IMG/VR virus record: IMGVR_UViG_3300047552_000680
Coordinates: 1 to 21,720 of that record
Direction: 5' to 3' (one strand)
DNA length: 21,720 bases
From: a virus
The translations under genes were made by a program, and so were the position numbers. Under the pieces are notes generated by a model that saw only the letters and a program-made list of their open reading frames with translations, made no database searches and was not told the origin of the DNA. Below, piece after piece: positions 6,481 to 20,735 of this stretch; position 1 is the stretch's first letter, and the number at the start of each line of letters is the position of its first letter.

Positions 6481-7194
6481 ATGAACGCATTACTCGCTCT
6501 ATCTGTTGTCGTGATTGTTGCGCATCATGATGACGAAATTCTATGGTTTGAGCCGTGGCTTGACCAAGCGTCAGAAGTAATCGTGATGATGCCGACAACT
6601 CCTACGTATGACGAAGTTAGGCAAAAGGAGCAGCAGTTATACGGCACCAAGGTTAAAAATCTATGGGGCCGTACAGAGGACGTGGATTACCTGGACTACT
6701 GGGTAGACAAGGAAGCAAGAGCGGACTCAATTAACTACCATTCGTTGAAGCAACTGCTTAGAAAGCATTTTAAGAACAGCGAAAACACGACGTTTCTAAC
6801 CCACAATCCATGGGGTGAGTACGGACATTATCACCATAAACTGCTTTACAAAGTGGCGCGCGACTTGGCCATCGAGTATAAGAAGACTTTGATTGTTGAC
6901 GGCGTACGCTACGACGACGGATACACGTACAACTTAACGCCAACTTCGCAGTTTATGAGTTACGATATGTGTAGATTCAGCGAGGTTCGCTCATTATTTC
7001 AGTCGGCTGTGTTTCCAGGCACATCGCTCGACGCTTGGACGTGGAACGATACAGACAGTGCGGTGCCTGGATACTCGCAAGACGTTCCGTATTCTCAGGT
7101 AATTGTTAATGGCGCACCTGTAGATATGGAAGAGCTTGAAAGATACGAAACAGACGCGCCGTTGCCATGGGTTGGCGCTCCAACGCCACAATAA
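6481..7194 (+). CDS. PIG-L-type (LmbE-like) deacetylase
   Basis: A 237-residue protein with the two hallmarks of the PIG-L/LmbE zinc deacetylase family: AHHDDE at residues 14-19, directly after the first hydrophobic strand, and THNPWGEYGHYHH at 107-119, which supplies further zinc-binding histidines. Family members remove acetyl groups from N-acetylglucosamine units of GPI precursors, mycothiol, bacillithiol or antibiotics. The substrate here is unknown; host surface glycans, thiol cofactors or modified nucleotides are possible. The N-terminal hydrophobic run is the first beta strand rather than a clear signal peptide. It stands between terminators and away from replication genes, so it may be an accessory gene gained separately. 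Confidence 0.82.
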   Translation: MNALLALSVVVIVAHHDDEILWFEPWLDQASEVIVMMPTTPTYDEVRQKEQQLYGTKVKNLWGRTEDVDYLDYWVDKEARADSINYHSLKQLLRKHFKNSENTTFLTHNPWGEYGHYHHKLLYKVARDLAIEYKKTLIVDGVRYDDGYTYNLTPTSQFMSYDMCRFSEVRSLFQSAVFPGTSLDAWTWNDTDSAVPGYSQDVPYSQVIVNGAPVDMEELERYETDAPLPWVGAPTPQ

Positions 7195-9243: not shown

Positions 9244-9795
9244 GTGCCAAAATTTGCAGACCTAACCAAAATGTCGTTTGGGCACCTAACCGCGCTTGAA
9301 AATATAGGAAAGAACAAGCATAAGCAGACGCTATGGGTTTGTGTGTGCGAATGCGGCGAAATGGTTGTTAAAAGCCAGTCAGAACTTGCAAAAAATTACA
9401 CAAACCACATACGTATGAGTTGCGGGTGTAAGAAGCCGGAAATTGGAGCGGAAAACGGGAAAAAAGGTGCCGAAAAGGTGCGCGCATCGAAAACAAAGCA
9501 CGGACAAGCTCTTGGAACAGGTCAGTATAAAAACGAATACGCGATATGGAAATCAATGAGGCAGCGGTGCAGCAATCCAAAAAGCCAGGATTGGCACGGG
9601 TACGGCGGTAGAGGAATTAAAGTGTGCGAAAGATGGGATTCTTTCTCTAGCTTCATAGAAGACATGGGAAGCAGGCCATCAAAGTCATACTCATTAGACC
9701 GTATTAACAACGACGGAAATTACGAACCAGGGAATTGTAAGTGGTCAACTTGCAGCGAGCAGGCGTTAAACAGGCGTCCCAAATCTTCAACCTAG
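9244..9795 (+). CDS. HNH-like endonuclease/DNA-binding protein, possibly selfish
   Basis: A 183-residue protein starting at GTG. Residues 33-62 hold cysteines (CVCEC, then CGC) that could bind zinc. Residues about 98-170 ([19 protein letters not shown], then [13 protein letters not shown] and [18 protein letters not shown]) match a common class of phage proteins annotated as HNH endonucleases. These are thought to be homing-type enzymes, although the central histidines of a canonical HNH are not obvious here. It is richer in A and Lys codons than its neighbours and interrupts the run between the early genes and the Sak4-like ATPase, as a mobile gene would. The second half is the diagnostic part. 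Confidence 0.7.
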
Positions 9796-9816
9796 AACAG
9801 AGAGAACACATAGAGC

Positions 9817-10566
9817 ATGGCAACCATTAGTCTTAACAGTATCGTAAGCAAGCGCGAGAAGCGTCCGATACGAATGGTTTTGTACGGCGTTGATTCTGTA
9901 GGAAAGACTTATTTTGCTACAAAATCCGAAAAACCAATTTTTCTCTGCACCGAAGACGGTGCGCATAACTATGATGTTCCGCGATTTCCAGTGCTTGAAT
10001 CGCACAAAGACATCATGGATGCGATAGGTGTTTTATACGATGAGCAAAACGACTTTAAGACCGTTGTACTTGATTCAGTGGATTTTGCAGAATCGTTAAT
10101 GCGCCGCTCCGTATGTTCGGAGCAGAATGTTCCTAGCATTGAAAGCTGCGGATATGGACGTGGATGGGTTTATGTTCGCGAGAAGTTTGACGAAATGCTC
10201 ATTGGCTTAGATGCGCTATGGATGAAAGGTTACAACATCATCCTCATCGCGCACAGCGACAAAGTAGCAACAGACGACCCGACAGTTGCCGAGCGGTACG
10301 ACCGTTTTACGCTGAAGCTCGACAAAAAGAACGAACCGAAACTCAGAGAGTGGTCGGATATCGTCGGCTTTTGCAACTTCGACACCATCGTTCGCGAATC
10401 GAAAGACGGACTAGCAACAGTAAAGCGCGCGGTTTCGTATGGCAAGCGATTGCTTCACCTGGAACGCTCCGCAGCATTCGACGCCAAAAATAGGTTTGGA
10501 TTGCCAGCAAAGATGCCGCTCGACTTTAACGAGTTTTACAAAGCATACCTTGACGCAATCGCATAG
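9817..10566 (+). CDS. Sak4-like RecA-fold ATPase (recombination)
   Basis: A 249-residue single-domain P-loop ATPase. Walker A is GVDSVGKT at 24-31 and the Walker B strand is KTVVLDSVD with D86. A later YNIILIAHSDK resembles the sensor region of RecA-like folds. Phage proteins of this type (Sak4, AAA_24) are minimal RecA relatives that bind single-stranded DNA and promote annealing with a partner SSB. Here the next gene encodes a DUF669 ssDNA-binding protein, the usual neighbour. Together with RusA and the PD-(D/E)XK nuclease it makes a recombination module. AGAG sequences precede the ATG. Confidence 0.82.
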   Translation: MATISLNSIVSKREKRPIRMVLYGVDSVGKTYFATKSEKPIFLCTEDGAHNYDVPRFPVLESHKDIMDAIGVLYDEQNDFKTVVLDSVDFAESLMRRSVCSEQNVPSIESCGYGRGWVYVREKFDEMLIGLDALWMKGYNIILIAHSDKVATDDPTVAERYDRFTLKLDKKNEPKLREWSDIVGFCNFDTIVRESKDGLATVKRAVSYGKRLLHLERSAAFDAKNRFGLPAKMPLDFNEFYKAYLDAIA

Positions 10567-10594
10567 TTTCCAAGTAGACAGAGGCATTAAAAAG

Positions 10595-11113
10595 ATGACG
10601 AATTGGGCAGAATATGACATTAACCAAATCAACCTTGCAGACACTCCGCCCGCTCCGCAAGGTGACTTCGAACCGTTGCCGGAAGGAGTATACAAAATAG
10701 TTCTGATTTCGCACGAACAGAAGGCGACAAAGGCTAATGACGGATTGATTATCGCCTTGCGGTTTGACGTAACGGAAGGAAAGTACGCCGGTCGCGTTCT
10801 TTGGGTTAACGCCAACATCGTTAACAAGAGCGAGAAGGCGCAGGAAATCTCGCGCCGCTTGTTGTCTTCCTTGTTCAACGCGTGGGGATATCCGCCAGAA
10901 GCGCCGATGCGCGATACGCTTGATGCTGGCATTGGTAGAGAGGTTATCGCAAAGGTTGCGGTACGTGCAGCGTCGAACGGGTACAAGGCATCGAACGAAA
11001 TCAGGACGTTTTATGCGACCGATGAGAGCGCTCCGAAAGTCGCTGTAGCTACGAACAACGTAGCGCAAGCGAGCGCAACGGCAGACGGTGGGAAGCGCCC
11101 TTGGGAACGGTAA
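10595..11113 (+). CDS. DUF669-like single-stranded DNA-binding protein
   Basis: A 172-residue protein, of the usual size for phage DUF669 proteins, which act as single-strand DNA-binding partners of Sak-type recombinases. Features of the family include LPEGVYKIVLISHEQKATK, ALRFDVTEGKYAGRVLW and NIVNKSEKAQEISRRLL. The start at 10595 has AGAGG upstream. Its N terminus, WAEYDINQINLADTP (residues 4-18), repeats a motif in the linker of the primase-helicase. The repeat is exact at the protein level from Tyr to Pro, but the codons differ, so this N-terminal peptide is likely functional, perhaps a docking site. A strong terminator follows the gene. Confidence 0.78.
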   Translation: MTNWAEYDINQINLADTPPAPQGDFEPLPEGVYKIVLISHEQKATKANDGLIIALRFDVTEGKYAGRVLWVNANIVNKSEKAQEISRRLLSSLFNAWGYPPEAPMRDTLDAGIGREVIAKVAVRAASNGYKASNEIRTFYATDESAPKVAVATNNVAQASATADGGKRPWER

Positions 11114-12913: not shown

Positions 12914-13958
12914 GGCAATCGAAGAATCGCAGCCTACCGAAAGTTGGCGCAGTCATTTCGGTATGTCGCAGATTGGCGCGAAAGACCATCGGTTGCTTTG
13001 GATGTCGTACCGTTGGTGCCTTCCGCCACGATTTAGCCCGCTAACCAAGCGCATCTTTTCACTCGGTAACGCCATCGAAACAGAGATTATCAAACTGTTG
13101 CGCAACATTCCAGGCGTCACCATTCACGAAGTAGACCCAGAATCCGGCAAGCAATTCGGATTTAGGCACCTTGGCGGATTGTTCTGCGGTTCGTGCGACT
13201 TCGTTGCACTAGGCATTCCTGAGTTTCCAGATGAATGGATTATTGGCGAATGCAAGAGCGTGTCGTCAAAGCGGTTCAAGGAACTGAAAAAGAAAGGCGT
13301 CAGAGAATGGTCGTCAGAGTATTGGGCACAACTCCATTGTTACGTCGGAAGCGCCGGCCTAAAGCATGCCGTATTCATCGCGTACTGTAAGGACGATAGC
13401 GAGCTTTATATCGAGTTCGTTGAACTAGACGAACGGCTTTTCCTTTCTCTCGTTGCCAAGGCCGAACGGATTATTACCGCTCCCGATGCTCCGGAATCTA
13501 CTTGGCCTGATGAAACGTACTACGAGTCGCGATGGCTAGGCAACGAAGGCGCTGCTATCTATTGGGGTATCCAACTACCGCAACAGGTTCATTGCCGGAA
13601 CTGTCGGCACGCAGCACCAGACACAGAGTCCGGAAAATGGCAGTGTAAAATAAAAGAATGTTCGCTTGATTTCGAACAGCAAAGCCAAGGATGTCCGTCG
13701 CATAACTTCATACCGTCACTTGTGCCTGCGACGTTGCGCAAAGTTGCGCATGACTATGTAGAGTACGAAACAAAGGACGATAAGACCGTATTTTGGAATA
13801 CGGAACATACTGGCGCGATACATCACAACGCATTTACATCAAAAGAACTAGCAGCAATGTCTATTGGCGGTTTGCTTGGTTATCGGATTCAAGACGAAGA
13901 ACTACAAGCCATCCGCACGGAATTTGACGCGCAAATTATTGGAGAACAAGCACAATGA
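12891..13958 (+). CDS. PD-(D/E)XK nuclease with Cys cluster (Cas4/RecB-like)
   Basis: A 355-residue nuclease of the PD-(D/E)XK superfamily. The core is GSCDFVA with D103, then IGECKS with E120 and K122, then QLHCY with Q147 and Y151; this is the signature of the RecB/Cas4-like branch. A C-terminal cysteine group (C235, C238, C252, C257, C268) with a final His may bind zinc or an iron-sulfur cluster. Phage members are exonucleases or endonucleases that trim DNA ends for recombination, and here it lies directly behind a helicase, as in end-processing pairs. The start overlaps the helicase and the stop overlaps the RNR start (ATGA). Confidence 0.85.
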   Translation: MKFQTLLEAIEESQPTESWRSHFGMSQIGAKDHRLLWMSYRWCLPPRFSPLTKRIFSLGNAIETEIIKLLRNIPGVTIHEVDPESGKQFGFRHLGGLFCGSCDFVALGIPEFPDEWIIGECKSVSSKRFKELKKKGVREWSSEYWAQLHCYVGSAGLKHAVFIAYCKDDSELYIEFVELDERLFLSLVAKAERIITAPDAPESTWPDETYYESRWLGNEGAAIYWGIQLPQQVHCRNCRHAAPDTESGKWQCKIKECSLDFEQQSQGCPSHNFIPSLVPATLRKVAHDYVEYETKDDKTVFWNTEHTGAIHHNAFTSKELAAMSIGGLLGYRIQDEELQAIRTEFDAQIIGEQAQ

Positions 13959-15841
13959 CATCACTCCCTACTCCGTATCAGGAGTATATCGCGCTATCCA
14001 GGTACGCCAGATGGATACCAGAAAAAAACAGGCGCGAGTATTGGCCGGAAACAGTTGACCGATACATTGATTTCTTCTCAAAGAGATTCCCAGAAATACC
14101 GCAAAAGACACTAGACAAGGCGCGAAATGCGATTGTTTCGCTTGACGTAATGCCATCTATGCGCGCCATTATGACAGCCGGAAAGGCTCTAGAACTGTCA
14201 GAGCTTGCCGGATATAACTGCTCCTATCTGGCAATCGACAGTATCCGCTCTTTTGATGAAGTTTTGTTCGTTCTGATGAACGGAGTAGGAGTCGGCTTCT
14301 CTGTAGAGCGTCAGTACATTACGCAGTTGCCTGAAGTACCGGACGAATTTAGAAAGACGGATACCTGTATTGTTGTCGCAGACTCGAAGCGTGGATGGGC
14401 AACGGCTCTCAAGGAACTCATCGCGCTACTGTTTAGCGGTCAGATTCCATCTTGGGACTTGTCAAAGGTGCGTCCAGCTGGAGCTAGACTGAAAACCTTC
14501 GGCGGTCGTGCGTCAGGACCTGCTCCGCTTGATGATGTTTTTAAGTACACGGTTGCCATGATTACCGGCGCGAAAGGCCGAAAGCTTTCGTCTATTGAGT
14601 GTCATGACCTAGTGTGCAAGATTGCAGAATGCGTTGTCGTTGGTGGCGTCAGGCGCAGCGCGCTAATCAGTCTGTCAAACCTGTCAGACGAGCGCATGCG
14701 CAATGCGAAGTCTGGTCAATGGTGGAACGACCACACGGAGCGAAGCCTTGCGAACAACTCGGTTGCATACACCGAAAAGCCAGACATCGGCATCTTTATG
14801 TCGGAGTGGCTTTCGCTGTATCGGTCAAAGTCTGGCGAGCGCGGAATTTTCAACCGTAAGGCGGCAGAGAACTTGACGCCTGAAAGGCGTGAACCATATG
14901 CGTATGGGTACGGAACCAACCCTTGCTCCGAAATCGTTTTACGCAGCAATCAACTGTGTAACCTAACCGAAGTCGTAATACGCAAAGACGACACGCTTGA
15001 TACGCTGTTAGACAAAATTGAGATTGCAACCATACTCGGTACGCTTCAATCGACTCTGACCAACTTCAAATATGTTAACCGCAAGTGGAAGGAGAATTGC
15101 GAAGAAGAACGGCTGCTTGGCGTAAGCCTTACCGGGATATGCGACCATCCCGTACTAAGCACTGTATCTAATGAAGCCGAAGGCTGGCTACGCGGAATGC
15201 GCGAGTATTCAAAAGTTGTCAATGCTCAGTGGTCCGAAACACTCGGCATTAACAAGTCCGCTTCCATAACATGCGTGAAGCCTTCTGGCACGGTGTCGCA
15301 ATTAGTTGATTCAGCTAGCGGCATCCATCCGCGCTATTCGCCGTATTACATTCGAACAGTACGCGCGGACAAGAAGGACCCGCTCGCTATCATGATGCGC
15401 GATGCTGGTGTTCTGTGCGAAGACGACGTGATGCGCCCAGACTCGACGTACGTATTTAGCTTTCCGGTAAAAGCGCCAGAAGGAAGCGTGATGCGTGATG
15501 ATAGGACCGCGTTAGAGCAGTTAGAACTATGGAAGCAATATCAGCTCAATTACTGCGAACACAAGCCAAGCATTACGGTTTACGTGAAGGAGCACGAATG
15601 GCTTAACGTCGGCGCGTGGGTATACGACAACTTTGACATCGTGTCAGGTATATCGTTCCTGCCGCACTCTGACCATACGTACCGCCAAGCCCCGTATCAG
15701 GAGTGCACTGAAGACGAATACAACAAAGCAGTTGCAGCGATGCCAAATCTTGATTGGCTAAACCTTGGAGAGTACGAGAAAGACGACAACACGGAAGCAA
15801 TGCAAACGCTTGCATGTACTAGCGGTCACTGTGAGATATGA
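13955..15841 (+). CDS. nrdJ: Class II (B12-dependent) ribonucleotide reductase
   Basis: A 628-residue adenosylcobalamin-dependent reductase of the monomeric RTPR type, converting ribonucleotides to deoxyribonucleotides for phage DNA synthesis. The active site is clear: N322, C324 and E326 in NPCSEI, C335 in SNQLCNLTEV and C89 in YNCSYL, matching Asn406, Cys408, Glu410, Cys419 and Cys119 of the Lactobacillus enzyme. The C-terminal redox pair is CTSGHC (C621, C626). It is about 110 residues shorter than the 739-residue model enzyme, with shortening between C89 and C324 that could trim the insertion carrying the allosteric site. No intein is present. It needs host or medium B12 and works with ThyX and MazG just downstream. 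Confidence 0.93.
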   Translation: MTSLPTPYQEYIALSRYARWIPEKNRREYWPETVDRYIDFFSKRFPEIPQKTLDKARNAIVSLDVMPSMRAIMTAGKALELSELAGYNCSYLAIDSIRSFDEVLFVLMNGVGVGFSVERQYITQLPEVPDEFRKTDTCIVVADSKRGWATALKELIALLFSGQIPSWDLSKVRPAGARLKTFGGRASGPAPLDDVFKYTVAMITGAKGRKLSSIECHDLVCKIAECVVVGGVRRSALISLSNLSDERMRNAKSGQWWNDHTERSLANNSVAYTEKPDIGIFMSEWLSLYRSKSGERGIFNRKAAENLTPERREPYAYGYGTNPCSEIVLRSNQLCNLTEVVIRKDDTLDTLLDKIEIATILGTLQSTLTNFKYVNRKWKENCEEERLLGVSLTGICDHPVLSTVSNEAEGWLRGMREYSKVVNAQWSETLGINKSASITCVKPSGTVSQLVDSASGIHPRYSPYYIRTVRADKKDPLAIMMRDAGVLCEDDVMRPDSTYVFSFPVKAPEGSVMRDDRTALEQLELWKQYQLNYCEHKPSITVYVKEHEWLNVGAWVYDNFDIVSGISFLPHSDHTYRQAPYQECTEDEYNKAVAAMPNLDWLNLGEYEKDDNTEAMQTLACTSGHCEI

Positions 15842-18300: not shown

Positions 18301-18529
18301 TACTGGCATTGCGTCAGAGGCTAACCCGCTCGTAAGCGCAACCATGAAGCTTGTTGGAGTCTATTGGGCAATCGTAATTTTTAAGCTTGCATGTCTCGCG
18401 ATGTGTGGTATGCTGTACGGCATGCGCGAAATGTTTGCTGTTTCTTCTGTAAGAATGACGGCCCTAGCCGCTCTAGTGGCGGTATACGGGTACGCGGTAA
18501 CTAGTAACATTGGAATTATCTTGTCATGA
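18209..18529 (+). CDS. DUF5658-like membrane protein, 106 aa
   Basis: ATG 18209 with GAGAG upstream is taken over an earlier in-frame start. The 106-residue product has three to four hydrophobic segments (IINTGIIFLALLMVADGVTT, then VYWAIVIFKLACLAMCGML, then MTALAALVAVYGYAVTSNIG). The motif VADGVTTL...EANPLV is typical of DUF5658 proteins, small integral membrane proteins of unknown function. The stop overlaps the clamp ATG (ATGA), so its translation is linked to the sliding clamp. Confidence 0.6.
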   Translation: MNQRLAIINTGIIFLALLMVADGVTTLYGFSTGIASEANPLVSATMKLVGVYWAIVIFKLACLAMCGMLYGMREMFAVSSVRMTALAALVAVYGYAVTSNIGIILS

Positions 18530-19620
18530 ATGTACGGTTTGCGAAACACTCTGTTCTTAGCGCTATACAGCGCGCAGCATCCGTTGCGCCGAGTAAGTCG
18601 CCTATCCAGACGCTTTCGAATGTCTTGCTTGAGTCTAGCGAACACGGACTAAAAATCACCGCAACGGATTTGGAAACGCAGATAGTTTCATCAAGCGAGG
18701 TTGACGTAGTAGAACAAGGATGCGCATGCGTATCAGCTAAGAAGCTATACGACGTCGTTAAGTCGCTTCCAGATGACGCAACGATTAGCGCATCCGAGAA
18801 AGATGGAAAGCTTATCGTCAAAGCAGGTCGTTCGCGTTTCTCTCTCGCTACTATTGACCCGTCAAACTTTCCAGTTTTCGACACTGGAGCGAAGCTAGTA
18901 TCTGTTGAACTCGATTCTGACGTGCTGCGCTACTTGATTGATAGCGTTGACTTCGCGTCAGCTAAAGACGACGTTCGGTACTACCTGAATGGAGTTTTCC
19001 TGACTTCCAATGGTGGAACAATCACGGCAGTAGCGAGTAATGGTCACCGTCTCGCTAAGAACGAAATCGAAGTTGTGTGTGAACCGTTTTCGGCTATTGT
19101 TCCGAGTAACGCAGTAGCATCTATAAAGAAGACCGCGAACGGTTCAACGATTACGTTGTCCGTCGGGGAACGGTCGATTGCAGTAAGCACGGAATCAGAA
19201 AACCTTGAGGCAAAGCTAATCGAAGGAAAGTTTCCTGACTTTAACCGCGTTATTCCTGCACCGAATTCTTTTGTCGCTGAAGTAGAGGTTAACCGGCGCT
19301 CGTTCGTTGACGCACTAAAGCGTGCTTCTATCCTATCCGAGGAGCGTACCGGAGCAATTGTGCTATCGGCTAACCAGGAAGCCATAAGCATTACATCAGC
19401 GAACAGTTCTGACGAAAGCGCTAGCGAGTCTGTTGATGTAGTTGCGTTGTTCGGAGAACAAATTGAACGCGTAGGGTTTAACGTTAACTACCTTATCCAA
19501 GCGATAAGTTCAGTTGCGTGCGAGAACGTTAAGCTAATGGTTAGCGACAAAGGAACTGTTGTAATAAGCTCAGAGAACTTTCCGTTCTGGAAGACAGTAA
19601 TTATGCCGATGCGAGTCTGA
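18526..19620 (+). CDS. dnaN: DNA polymerase III sliding clamp (beta subunit)
   Basis: A 364-residue protein, normal for bacterial beta clamps, with the three-domain pattern: SVLSAIQRAASVAPSKSPIQ near the start, TDLETQI in domain 1, LNGVFL and SNGHRLA in domain 2, and EGKFPDFNRVIP leading into domain 3, ending in VIMPMRV, the usual C terminus. The clamp forms a ring around DNA and holds the polymerase. No DNA polymerase is encoded in this window, so it may recruit the host polymerase or one encoded elsewhere. It starts within an ATGA overlap and directly precedes the tRNA-like array. Confidence 0.95.
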   Translation: MNVRFAKHSVLSAIQRAASVAPSKSPIQTLSNVLLESSEHGLKITATDLETQIVSSSEVDVVEQGCACVSAKKLYDVVKSLPDDATISASEKDGKLIVKAGRSRFSLATIDPSNFPVFDTGAKLVSVELDSDVLRYLIDSVDFASAKDDVRYYLNGVFLTSNGGTITAVASNGHRLAKNEIEVVCEPFSAIVPSNAVASIKKTANGSTITLSVGERSIAVSTESENLEAKLIEGKFPDFNRVIPAPNSFVAEVEVNRRSFVDALKRASILSEERTGAIVLSANQEAISITSANSSDESASESVDVVALFGEQIERVGFNVNYLIQAISSVACENVKLMVSDKGTVVISSENFPFWKTVIMPMRV

Positions 19621-19621
19621 T

Positions 19622-19690
19622 ATGATTGAACAAATGCCTTTATTGTTGTTATGCCTAGCCGCCTTCTGGTTGTTTGTGGCAGTTAGGTAA
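19622..19690 (+). CDS. Possible 22-aa hydrophobic peptide
   Basis: ATG at 19622, one base after the clamp stop, and TAA at 19688-19690. The product MIEQMPLLLLCLAAFWLFVA plus two residues would be a single membrane helix. No convincing Shine-Dalgarno; translation would rely on coupling to dnaN. Weak call. Confidence 0.25.
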   Translation: MIEQMPLLLLCLAAFWLFVAVR

Positions 19691-19699
19691 TAGTTTTAC

Positions 19700-19801
19700 G
19701 GAGCGGCGCGAGGATAGGCACAACGTGACGACGGGGCTATCCGATCCGTCTTGGCCAGACGGCGCGAAGTGCCAGCGCCCTAACGGGCGCCCGCTCCACC
19801 C
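19700..19801 (+). ncRNA. tRNA-like unit 1 (cloverleaf, alanine-type GGC loop)
   Basis: Acceptor GGAGCGG (19700-19706) pairs with CCGCTCC (19791-19797), followed by A, CC and C. Inside are three hairpins: GGATAG/CTATCC (19712-19742), CCGTC/GACGG (19746-19762) with a 7-base loop TTGGCCA that puts T before GGC, and GCGCCC/GGGCGC (19775-19790), which abuts the acceptor as a T-arm does. The T-arm loop is only TAAC, and the first arm has a 19-base loop, so this is not a standard tRNA. Confidence 0.5.
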
Positions 19802-19856
19802 AATCCGCGACAGATGCGGACGACTGGCCCGGTCGTAATAATGGGCGCTGATTTAC

Positions 19857-19941
19857 GGAGCGGCAGCGTGCGGACACGCCGTAAGCGGTAAAAGGGTCGC
19901 AACCTTACGCCTGCCGGGTTCGACTCCCGGTCTCGCTCCCA
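19857..19941 (+). ncRNA. tRNA-like unit 2 (cloverleaf, CGC loop, encoded CCA)
   Basis: GGAGCGG (19857-19863) pairs with TCGCTCC (19933-19939). Arms: GCGTG/CACGC (19866-19879), CGTAAG/CTTACG (19880-19909), and a textbook T-arm CCGGG-TTCGACT-CCCGG (19914-19930). Within the middle arm AAGG/CCTT can close a 7-base loop GTCGCAA with T before CGC (an alanine anticodon). CCA is encoded at 19939-19941 if the acceptor is read two bases further in (AGCGGCA with TCTCGCT, one mismatch). The two readings are alternatives. Confidence 0.55.
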
Positions 19942-19985
19942 ACGGGCCGAAAGGTCGCCGGATAACGTAACCGGCACTGATTTAC

Positions 19986-20040
19986 GGAACCGTGCGACAG
20001 TTCGATTCTGTCAGCGCGCATCTGGTGACACGGTTCCACC
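19986..20040 (+). ncRNA. tRNA-like unit 3 (55 nt, T-arm on the 5' side)
   Basis: GGAACCGTG (19986-19994) pairs perfectly with CACGGTTCC (20029-20037), followed by ACC. The only strong internal hairpin is GACAG-TTCGATT-CTGTC (19996-20012), a classic T-arm sequence, but it follows the 5' acceptor strand instead of preceding the 3' strand. The remaining 16 bases (20013-20028) appear single-stranded. There is no anticodon arm. Confidence 0.5.
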
Positions 20041-20046
20041 TTTTAC

Positions 20047-20262
20047 GGAGCGGCATCGCGGACAGTGACGCGAGTGTATACGTGCCAGACACGGCAAAGG
20101 GTCCAAGCTGACGCTCTCGGTGACGAGAGGATCGGTCAGTGCCTAGCAGATAAGGGCTGCGTTTTAACGGCTTAACGGGCTTCTGGCGGTAGGTGGCATC
20201 CCGGTTATATCGCCACCATCTTATGTGCCACAGTCGGGTGCAATTCCCGACCCGCTCCACCA
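20047..20262 (+). ncRNA. tRNA-like unit 4 (216 nt, multi-hairpin body)
   Basis: GGAGCGG (20047-20053) pairs with CCGCTCC (20252-20258), followed by A and an encoded CCA (20260-20262). A T-arm-like hairpin, GTCGGG-TGCAATT-CCCGAC (20233-20251), abuts the acceptor; its loop has G where tRNAs have the second T. The long body contains hairpins CGCG/CGCG (20057-20072), CTGAC/GTCAG enclosing CTCTC/GAGAG (about 20108-20139), GCAG/CTGC (about 20146-20160) and GGTGGC/GCCACC (about 20192-20217). Too long for a tRNA and too short for a typical tmRNA. Confidence 0.5.
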
Positions 20263-20335
20263 AATCGGACGTGATGAAACCGAGATTGCATCGCGCACCC
20301 GCGTAGCTTGCTACGGGCCGACTCGGCGGCCACCA
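20263..20335 (+). other. Hairpin-rich spacer ending in ACCA
   Basis: Three hairpins follow unit 4: TCGG/CCGA near 20266, GTAGC-TT-GCTAC inside CCC/GGG near 20298-20317, and GCCGA/TCGGC at about 20317-20327. The stretch ends GGCC-ACCA at 20332-20335, like the 3' end of the other units, but no matching 5' acceptor strand is visible. It may be a decayed seventh unit. Confidence 0.3.
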
Positions 20336-20340
20336 TTTAC

Positions 20341-20393
20341 GGAGCGGCGGCAGATTTGGGCCGCGTGCAGTTCGAGCCTGCACCGCTCCACCA
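20341..20393 (+). ncRNA. tRNA-like unit 5 (53-nt mini-tRNA)
   Basis: A compact unit: GGAGCGG (20341-20347) with CCGCTCC (20383-20389), all seven pairs perfect, then A and encoded CCA (20391-20393). The T-arm TGCAG-TTCGAGC-CTGCA (20366-20382) stands exactly next to the acceptor. Between the 5' strand and the T-arm there are only 18 bases, which form one small hairpin (CGGC/GCCG, 8-base loop). It therefore has one arm where a tRNA has two, and no anticodon. Confidence 0.6.
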
Positions 20394-20397
20394 TTAC

Positions 20398-20471
20398 GGA
20401 CCAGCGACGATACCTGGAGTTTGCGGCGCACTGATACGTCGAGCCGGTGAGATTCCGGCACGGGTCCACCA
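20398..20471 (+). ncRNA. tRNA-like unit 6 (74 nt, closest to a tRNA)
   Basis: GGACCAG (20398-20404) pairs with CGGGTCC (20461-20467), one mismatch, then A and encoded CCA (20469-20471). T-arm-like GCCGG-TGAGATT-CCGGC (20443-20459) has an altered loop, and one extra base separates it from the acceptor. A middle arm CGGCG/CGTCG (20424-20441) has an 8-base loop CACTGATA, one more than normal. The D-region holds CTGGAG but only a 3-bp stem. A functional tRNA is possible but unusual; an anticodon cannot be assigned safely. Confidence 0.5.
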
Positions 20472-20486
20472 CAAACGGGGAAGGCA

Positions 20487-20735
20487 ATGACTCTGTTCGA
20501 TGAATTCAAGAAAAAGGCGGGCAATGCAGTATCAGACGCAGCCGAGATATTGCGAGCTACTGATTATCACAATGAATCTAAACACTTGCGATGGGGCCAT
20601 GCCTGCGACAATTCAGCAGACGCGGTCAGGCGAGCCGAGTATGTAGCACAGGCTGAACGGCTTGTGATACGCGAATGCAAGGAAGAAATTCTGAAGCTGG
20701 CTGCGAGACTCGCAATCGAGTCAATCGGGATTTAA
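20487..20735 (+). CDS. Hypothetical helical protein, 82 aa
   Basis: ATG 20487 lies 16 bases after the last tRNA-like unit, with GGGGAAGG upstream. The 82-residue product is helical (MTLFDEFKKKAGNAVSDAAE, then RLVIRECKEEILKLAARLAI). The IRECKEE segment is loosely similar to the REECA motif of the next three genes, and the start (MTLFDEF) resembles theirs, so it may belong to the same small family. No function is known. Confidence 0.55.
   Translation: MTLFDEFKKKAGNAVSDAAEILRATDYHNESKHLRWGHACDNSADAVRRAEYVAQAERLVIRECKEEILKLAARLAIESIGI

Follow-up and report, generated by a model that had tools for sequence, protein, structure and literature searches.

A single gap between genes in a 21,720-base phage fragment, catalogued as a virus record and analysed here over its full length (the window), contains six tandem units (19695–20471, plus strand) that share tRNA-like ends. 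We judge it probable, at roughly 60%, that this array encodes a variety of small non-coding RNAs, transcribed together and then freed by host RNase P. Phages carry tRNAs, together with a few large RNAs whose purpose is unclear. The units follow a shared plan, namely a U-rich leader (TTTAC), a closing stem that opens with G, a body of about 35–200 nt and, in five of the six, a 3′ ACC; whole units span 53 to about 216 nt. The units and the adjoining genes are as follows.

18526–19620, plus strand: dnaN-like sliding clamp gene (phrog_947, 2.4e-74), the last larger gene upstream of the array.
19622–19690, plus strand: 22-codon ORF between the dnaN-like gene and the array; the first unit opens 10 nt past it.
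19695–19800, plus strand: unit 1; leader TTTAC; stem GGAGCGG/CCGCTCC (19700–19706 with 19791–19797), then ACC; a TAAC-loop hairpin lies against the 3′ stem, in the usual place of a T-arm; folding z −2.2.
19852–19939, plus strand: unit 2; leader TTTAC; stem GGAGCGG/TCGCTCC; T-arm at 19914–19930; CAA instead of RCC; folding z −1.3, no better than many shuffles.
19981–20040, plus strand: unit 3; leader TTTAC; stem GGAACCG/CGGTTCC, then ACC; T-arm at 19996–20012, on the 5′ side; folding z −2.6.
20042–20262, plus strand: unit 4, about 216 nt; leader TTTAC; stem GGAGCGG/CCGCTCC; T-arm at 20234–20250 against the acceptor; ACCA; folding z −2.6.
20336–20393, plus strand: unit 5, the simplest (53 nt); leader TTTAC; stem GGAGCGG/CCGCTCC; one hairpin plus a T-arm at 20366–20382; ACCA; folding z −3.4.
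20393–20471, plus strand: unit 6; leader ATTAC; stem GGACC/GGTCC, pairing over just 5–6 bp; T-arm at 20443–20459; ACCA; folding z −0.6, no better than many shuffles.
20487–20735, plus strand: 82-aa ORF downstream of the array, with a ribosome-binding-like GGGGAAGG directly 3′ of the array.

The original prediction had described a 13-nt repeat opening the units, and we located four exact copies of TTTACGGAGCGGC (at 19695, 19852, 20042 and 20336) as well as two near copies, TTTACGGAACCGT at 19981 and ATTACGGACCAGC at 20393; about 0.0003 exact copies per strand are expected by chance from the base composition. With three mismatches tolerated, the same pattern gives 14 matches compared with 7.5 expected and is weak by itself, so the signal rests on the exact copies together with their paired 3′ strands. 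A strict unit definition (TTTA[CT]G, a 7-bp stem and [AG]CC; chance rate 0.028 per 100 kb of strand) is satisfied by four of the six units (1, 3, 4 and 5). Closure of each unit by a complementary strand, usually followed by ACC or ACCA, as had also been claimed, is borne out, with ACC or ACCA after five of the six; unit 2 ends in CAA and unit 6 has only its short stem. The acceptor, said to be identical throughout, is GGAGCGG in units 1, 2, 4 and 5 and differs in units 3 and 6. A search for hairpins with a 5-bp stem and a TNNRANN loop returned the five T-arm-like hairpins foreseen (19914, 19996, 20234, 20366 and 20443), all of them inside the array and none elsewhere on the plus strand of the window, where 0.34 are expected per strand; in units 4, 5 and 6 the hairpin sits 0–1 nt from the 3′ stem, beside the acceptor as in a tRNA. 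The bodies were likewise correctly described as unrelated and of the stated sizes, with no resemblance to one another except for the T-arm.

The array matches no known RNA family among those searched. ARAGORN called no tRNA and no tmRNA genes over the whole window, or over the array at default settings, and with relaxed settings its predictions on the array were about as frequent as in shuffled sequences; neither a D-arm nor an anticodon arm was recognised in the units. No Rfam family reached its gathering score in the window, the tRNA family RF00005 gave no matches, and a lax search returned weak matches only, mostly around the T-arm-like hairpins (tRNA-Sec, FMN riboswitch and permuted tmRNA). 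The best scores against the tmRNA covariance models, standard or permuted, were 13.3 bits in the window and 22.6 bits in a related locus (L254), against a threshold of 47, and scans of the window and of relatives for ROOL, GOLLD and C4 RNA yielded no Rfam covariance match at threshold. We would therefore file the array with phage tRNA-like RNAs, and not as tRNA, tmRNA, ROOL/GOLLD or C4 RNA.

Eleven further phage records, one of them a sister contig of the window, carry arrays of the same architecture, sited between early genes and the integrase. The sister contig (29.5 kb) has 8,195 bases identical to the window and continues into integrase and tail genes. In a different phage (contig 3300043415_000095), related to the window phage in its thyX, integrase and tail module, TTTAC-GACACGG...CCGTGTC-ACC and TTTAC-GGAGCGG...CCGCTCC-ACC lie downstream of thyX. 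Alignment of a shared tail protein gathered 48 loci, and scanning these with the strict definition identified units in eight (L112, L116, L117, L211, L212, L215, L216 and L222), always on a single strand and near one common end of the locus, on the integrase side; three additional arrays (L219, L268 and L270) were identified by sequence. The units of the relatives sort by likeness of their bodies into the following types, which the arrays mix in varying order.

Type A: GGGCGGC...GCTGCCC, with hairpin loop TTTTTAAC.
Type B: GGGGCGG...CCGCCCC.
Type C: body resembling that of type D.
Type D: closing stems GACCCGG/CCGGGTC, GGCCGGG/CCCGGCC and GACTCCC/GGGAGTC, each fully paired.
Type E: longer, about 250 nt, with a strongly kept core GGGTTGCATGGCCCG..TTAAGTCGCAC; in L211, L212, L215, L254, L268 and L270.
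Type F: about 205 nt, with the acceptor of window unit 4 and a T-arm.

The bodies of types A–E are conserved across phages, and types A–D have no T-arm. Unit 4 has a counterpart of similar size in L254 (558–767) with an identical acceptor and a T-arm. L219, from a relative of the window phage, has unit 3 at 98% identity and, directly after it, a relative of unit 6 with a complete stem, GGACCCG/CGGGTCC; units 4 and 5 are absent and the 5′ part of unit 6 is divergent, from which it follows that whole units are gained or lost.

If the closing stems are held together by pairing, they should covary, and they do. We aligned 15 distinct closing stems and used as a control the same alignment with the partner slid by 1–3 columns. 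Pairing was found in 96.2% of cells, compared with 21–49% in the slid controls, a figure inflated by the fact that pairing was required to find most of the units; two-sided changes numbered 31, compared with 4–11, and the covariation score was 0.83. Cleaner evidence of covariation comes from the type D units, which were grouped by body, though they are few. For type E, the predicted consensus fold has two-sided changes at 12 of 59 pairs, from three sequences only, whereas the A/B and C/D alignments, in which the 3′ ends were misplaced, yielded no pairs on automatic consensus folding. A search that made no use of the leader, for two closed units 3–12 nt apart, found that every spacer at an array junction is short, U-rich and ends in TTTAC, TTTAT or TTTT (TTTTAC, CTTTTAT, CCTTTAT, CTTTT and TATTTAC among them); chance matches elsewhere have unrelated spacers. 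Taken together, the covarying stems and the absence of normal tRNA predictions and of any Rfam family over the region support the original prediction that RNA-like units form a family with a tRNA-like disguise and share a leader resembling a processing signal. A fixed acceptor sequence did not prove to be a trait of the family: the relatives instead keep the UUUAY leader, the G at +1, the pairing and the RCC.

Further searches concerned the distribution of such arrays and their possible likenesses. Tandem patterns built on the GGAGCGG acceptor matched other viral and bacterial contigs, none with a closed tandem unit, and the candidates read fully resemble coding DNA; a tandem TTTACGG pattern gave 97 stretches, of which the sister contig alone was real. 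A search by tail protein for prophages in genome contigs and 369 genomes of one class found none, and the annotations of named phages with relatives of the dnaN, terminase and integrase genes list no RNA array near those genes. Type E had seemed 16S-like, but when all units were locally aligned to E. coli rRNA the scores were at the level of shuffles. A type E hairpin resembles an anticodon arm with GGT (CTGACTGGTAATCAG in L254, CGACTGGTAATCG elsewhere), and type E has CCAGCGGGTAGC in common with BUCT708 and mEp390, which also have a longer conserved non-coding stretch in common. A hairpin motif, GTGACAGCCGGGAAAGACCGGCAC, lies in L254 (about 1258–1282) and L268 (reverse strand, about 905–929), and in the named phages MW862109 (39756), PP179333 (42990), OM816834 (32510), JQ182729 (27449) and MW202675 (51601), at unannotated or poorly annotated sites often close to repressor genes; in BUCT708 it is accompanied by several GGAAAGAC hairpins, and the loci L272–L274 gave no Rfam match. 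Beside the array position in L116 (reverse strand, about 850–1140) and L253 (reverse strand, about 9640–9840) there is a long GGCTACGGTGACGG-type minisatellite.

Within the window, the 22-codon ORF matched nothing in PHROGs and the 82-aa ORF nothing in Pfam or PADLOC. Promoter and terminator signals in or adjoining the array were not above chance, and the array is thus likely to be co-transcribed with the upstream genes, as an insert within a phage operon. Elsewhere in the window, 13955–15841 encodes a ribonucleotide reductase with a B12-dependent (class II) insertion domain, with thyX and dnaN-like genes downstream, and 6481–7194 a PIG-L-like de-N-acetylase domain slightly under the Pfam cut-off.

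Across the family the constant elements are the U-rich leader, the G at +1, the closing stem and the RCC; the base that follows RCC varies, and the terminal A of CCA is mostly not encoded. Because that last A is usually left unencoded, recognition by RNase P is more likely than the provision of ready ends for EF-Tu or aminoacylation. The 3′ RCC of a substrate pairs with GGU of the RNA of bacterial RNase P, which cuts hairpins, and even pseudoknots, bearing a 3′ RCC (PMC12710915), and the substrates of the enzyme include phage M3 RNA, C4 antisense RNA and tightly spaced T4 tRNA dimers (PMC11143913). In the array family the first pair is G-C in all 15 distinct closing-stem types, the leader is short and RCC is present in 14 of the 15. 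Since RNase P recognises such ends and has known substrates among phage RNAs, we propose that it releases each unit. Specifically, the array would be transcribed along with the neighbouring genes, and each unit would be a separate RNA whose ends form a stem like that of a tRNA acceptor, often with a T-arm or similar hairpin stacked on it, headed by a short U-rich spacer and trailed by an unpaired 3′ RCC. Host RNase P would cleave each unit ahead of the G that opens its closing stem, and 3′ enzymes of the host would trim the other end, giving a string of separate RNAs in which the ends would be a common processing cassette and the bodies variable effectors. We infer the transcription, cleavage and stability of these RNAs from sequence. 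The exact cut site in the units is uncertain because a C at −1 displaced the cut site in one pseudoknot substrate (PMC12710915).

A distant relative bears on where such arrays come from. EBPR siphovirus 2 (L129), whose tail protein is related at 28%, has three true tRNAs downstream of thyX, and the unannotated gap between its tRNA-Thr and tRNA-Arg (10315–10653) is filled with stem-closed elements, TTTAC-GTCTCG...CGAGAC-AACC and GAGGGCG...CGCCCTC-GCC. The location of these elements among true tRNAs after thyX suggests, without proving it, that the arrays derived from a tRNA cluster.

Counting against release of separate RNAs by RNase P are the missing RCC of unit 2, the poor pairing of unit 6 and the lack of a T-arm in types A–D, and two other explanations are its main rivals. 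The tRNA-like stems might serve only as RNase P cut points that separate genes on the early transcript, with the bodies as filler, which would suit the tight placement of the array between the preceding stop codon and the ribosome-binding site that follows, and the greater uniformity of unit ends than of bodies; a single unit would suffice for such a cut, however, yet arrays have as many as six, with large structured bodies, and the conservation of type A–E bodies between phages makes this explanation rather unlikely. Alternatively, former tRNA genes might be degenerating after duplication. The true tRNAs of EBPR siphovirus 2 and the T-arms still present in five units fit such decay, but two-sided changes keep the closing stems paired, the type A and B bodies are conserved, and neither the missing D-arm and anticodon arm nor the shuffle-like relaxed ARAGORN results favour it, so that we consider it unlikely.

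The acceptor stem, T-arm and ACCA of units 4–6, together with the weak permuted-tmRNA similarity (confined to T-arm and acceptor), might instead denote extreme but working tRNAs, or tmRNA-like adaptors, that take part in translation once charged. This is highly improbable given the absent anticodon arm, the lack of any default tRNA or tmRNA call and of a terminal A in most units, and the canonical cloverleaf shape of known bacterial tRNAs (PMC11551756). The gain and loss of whole units, with an integrase gene close by, could point to hairpin cassettes of single-stranded DNA, which a recombinase would move or which would be used in replication, and not to RNAs at all; we hold this to be very unlikely, as every unit is oriented alike within the operon, the T-arm loops follow the RNA T-loop consensus, and RCC and T-arm stacking suit RNA processing. 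As for short proteins, a 180-aa minus-strand ORF overlies the array (19982–20524) and short plus-strand ORFs run across unit borders, but searches of Pfam, PHROGs and PADLOC with the 180-aa ORF found no match, the plus strand of the array has 7–9 stops in each frame, and both type A and type B homologues differ by single-base indels, which leaves coding barely credible.

If the array is indeed a set of RNase P-released RNAs, what its bodies do is a more tentative matter. They might counter host factors that change fast, serving for instance as decoys for defences that bind or cut tRNAs, a guess made by loosely likening them to the phage tRNAs that give rescue when a retron or PrrC attacks (PMC11555353). 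Equally speculative is a cassette array whose small effector RNAs, each freed by host RNase P through a standard tRNA-like end, have exchangeable bodies that are swapped between phages for different host factors. A modular array of non-tRNA RNAs with a common RNase P-type end would, if real, be a new route to many RNAs per transcript, and, should the bodies be effectors, every array would amount to a ready inventory of RNA tools directed against the machinery of the host. The combination of UUUAY, G, a 7-bp stem and RCC offers a simple way to find further arrays overlooked by annotation.

We found no account of such an array in the literature searched; many subscription papers lay outside it, and a published description may exist. 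The tRNA clusters of phages (T4, T5 and EBPR siphovirus 2) are alike in their tandem units, acceptor stems, T-arms, short spacers and location in a gene gap, whereas the array units are 53–216 nt long, have no recognised anticodon or D-arm, mostly leave the last A of CCA unencoded and attract no tRNA calls. M3 RNA and the C4 antisense RNA of P1 and P7 are, similarly, small phage RNAs and are RNase P substrates (PMC11143913), as we infer for the array units, but they are single RNAs and not arrays of exchangeable units, and the array matches no Rfam family. The TYMV tRNA-like structure and tmRNA have an acceptor-like end recognised there by RNase P (PMC12710915); the tRNA-like structures of plant RNA viruses are, however, genome 3′ ends, and tmRNA is one tag-coding RNA, whereas the array has many different bodies and no tmRNA call. 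ROOL and GOLLD are structured phage RNAs of unclear function near tRNA islands (PMC12286853), but are far larger than the array units and have no Rfam match in the window or the relatives scanned. A possible functional parallel is provided by phage tRNAs that rescue from tRNA-cutting host defences (PMC11555353, PMC10264068), which are full tRNAs replacing a cut host tRNA, whereas the array units would be decoys at most.
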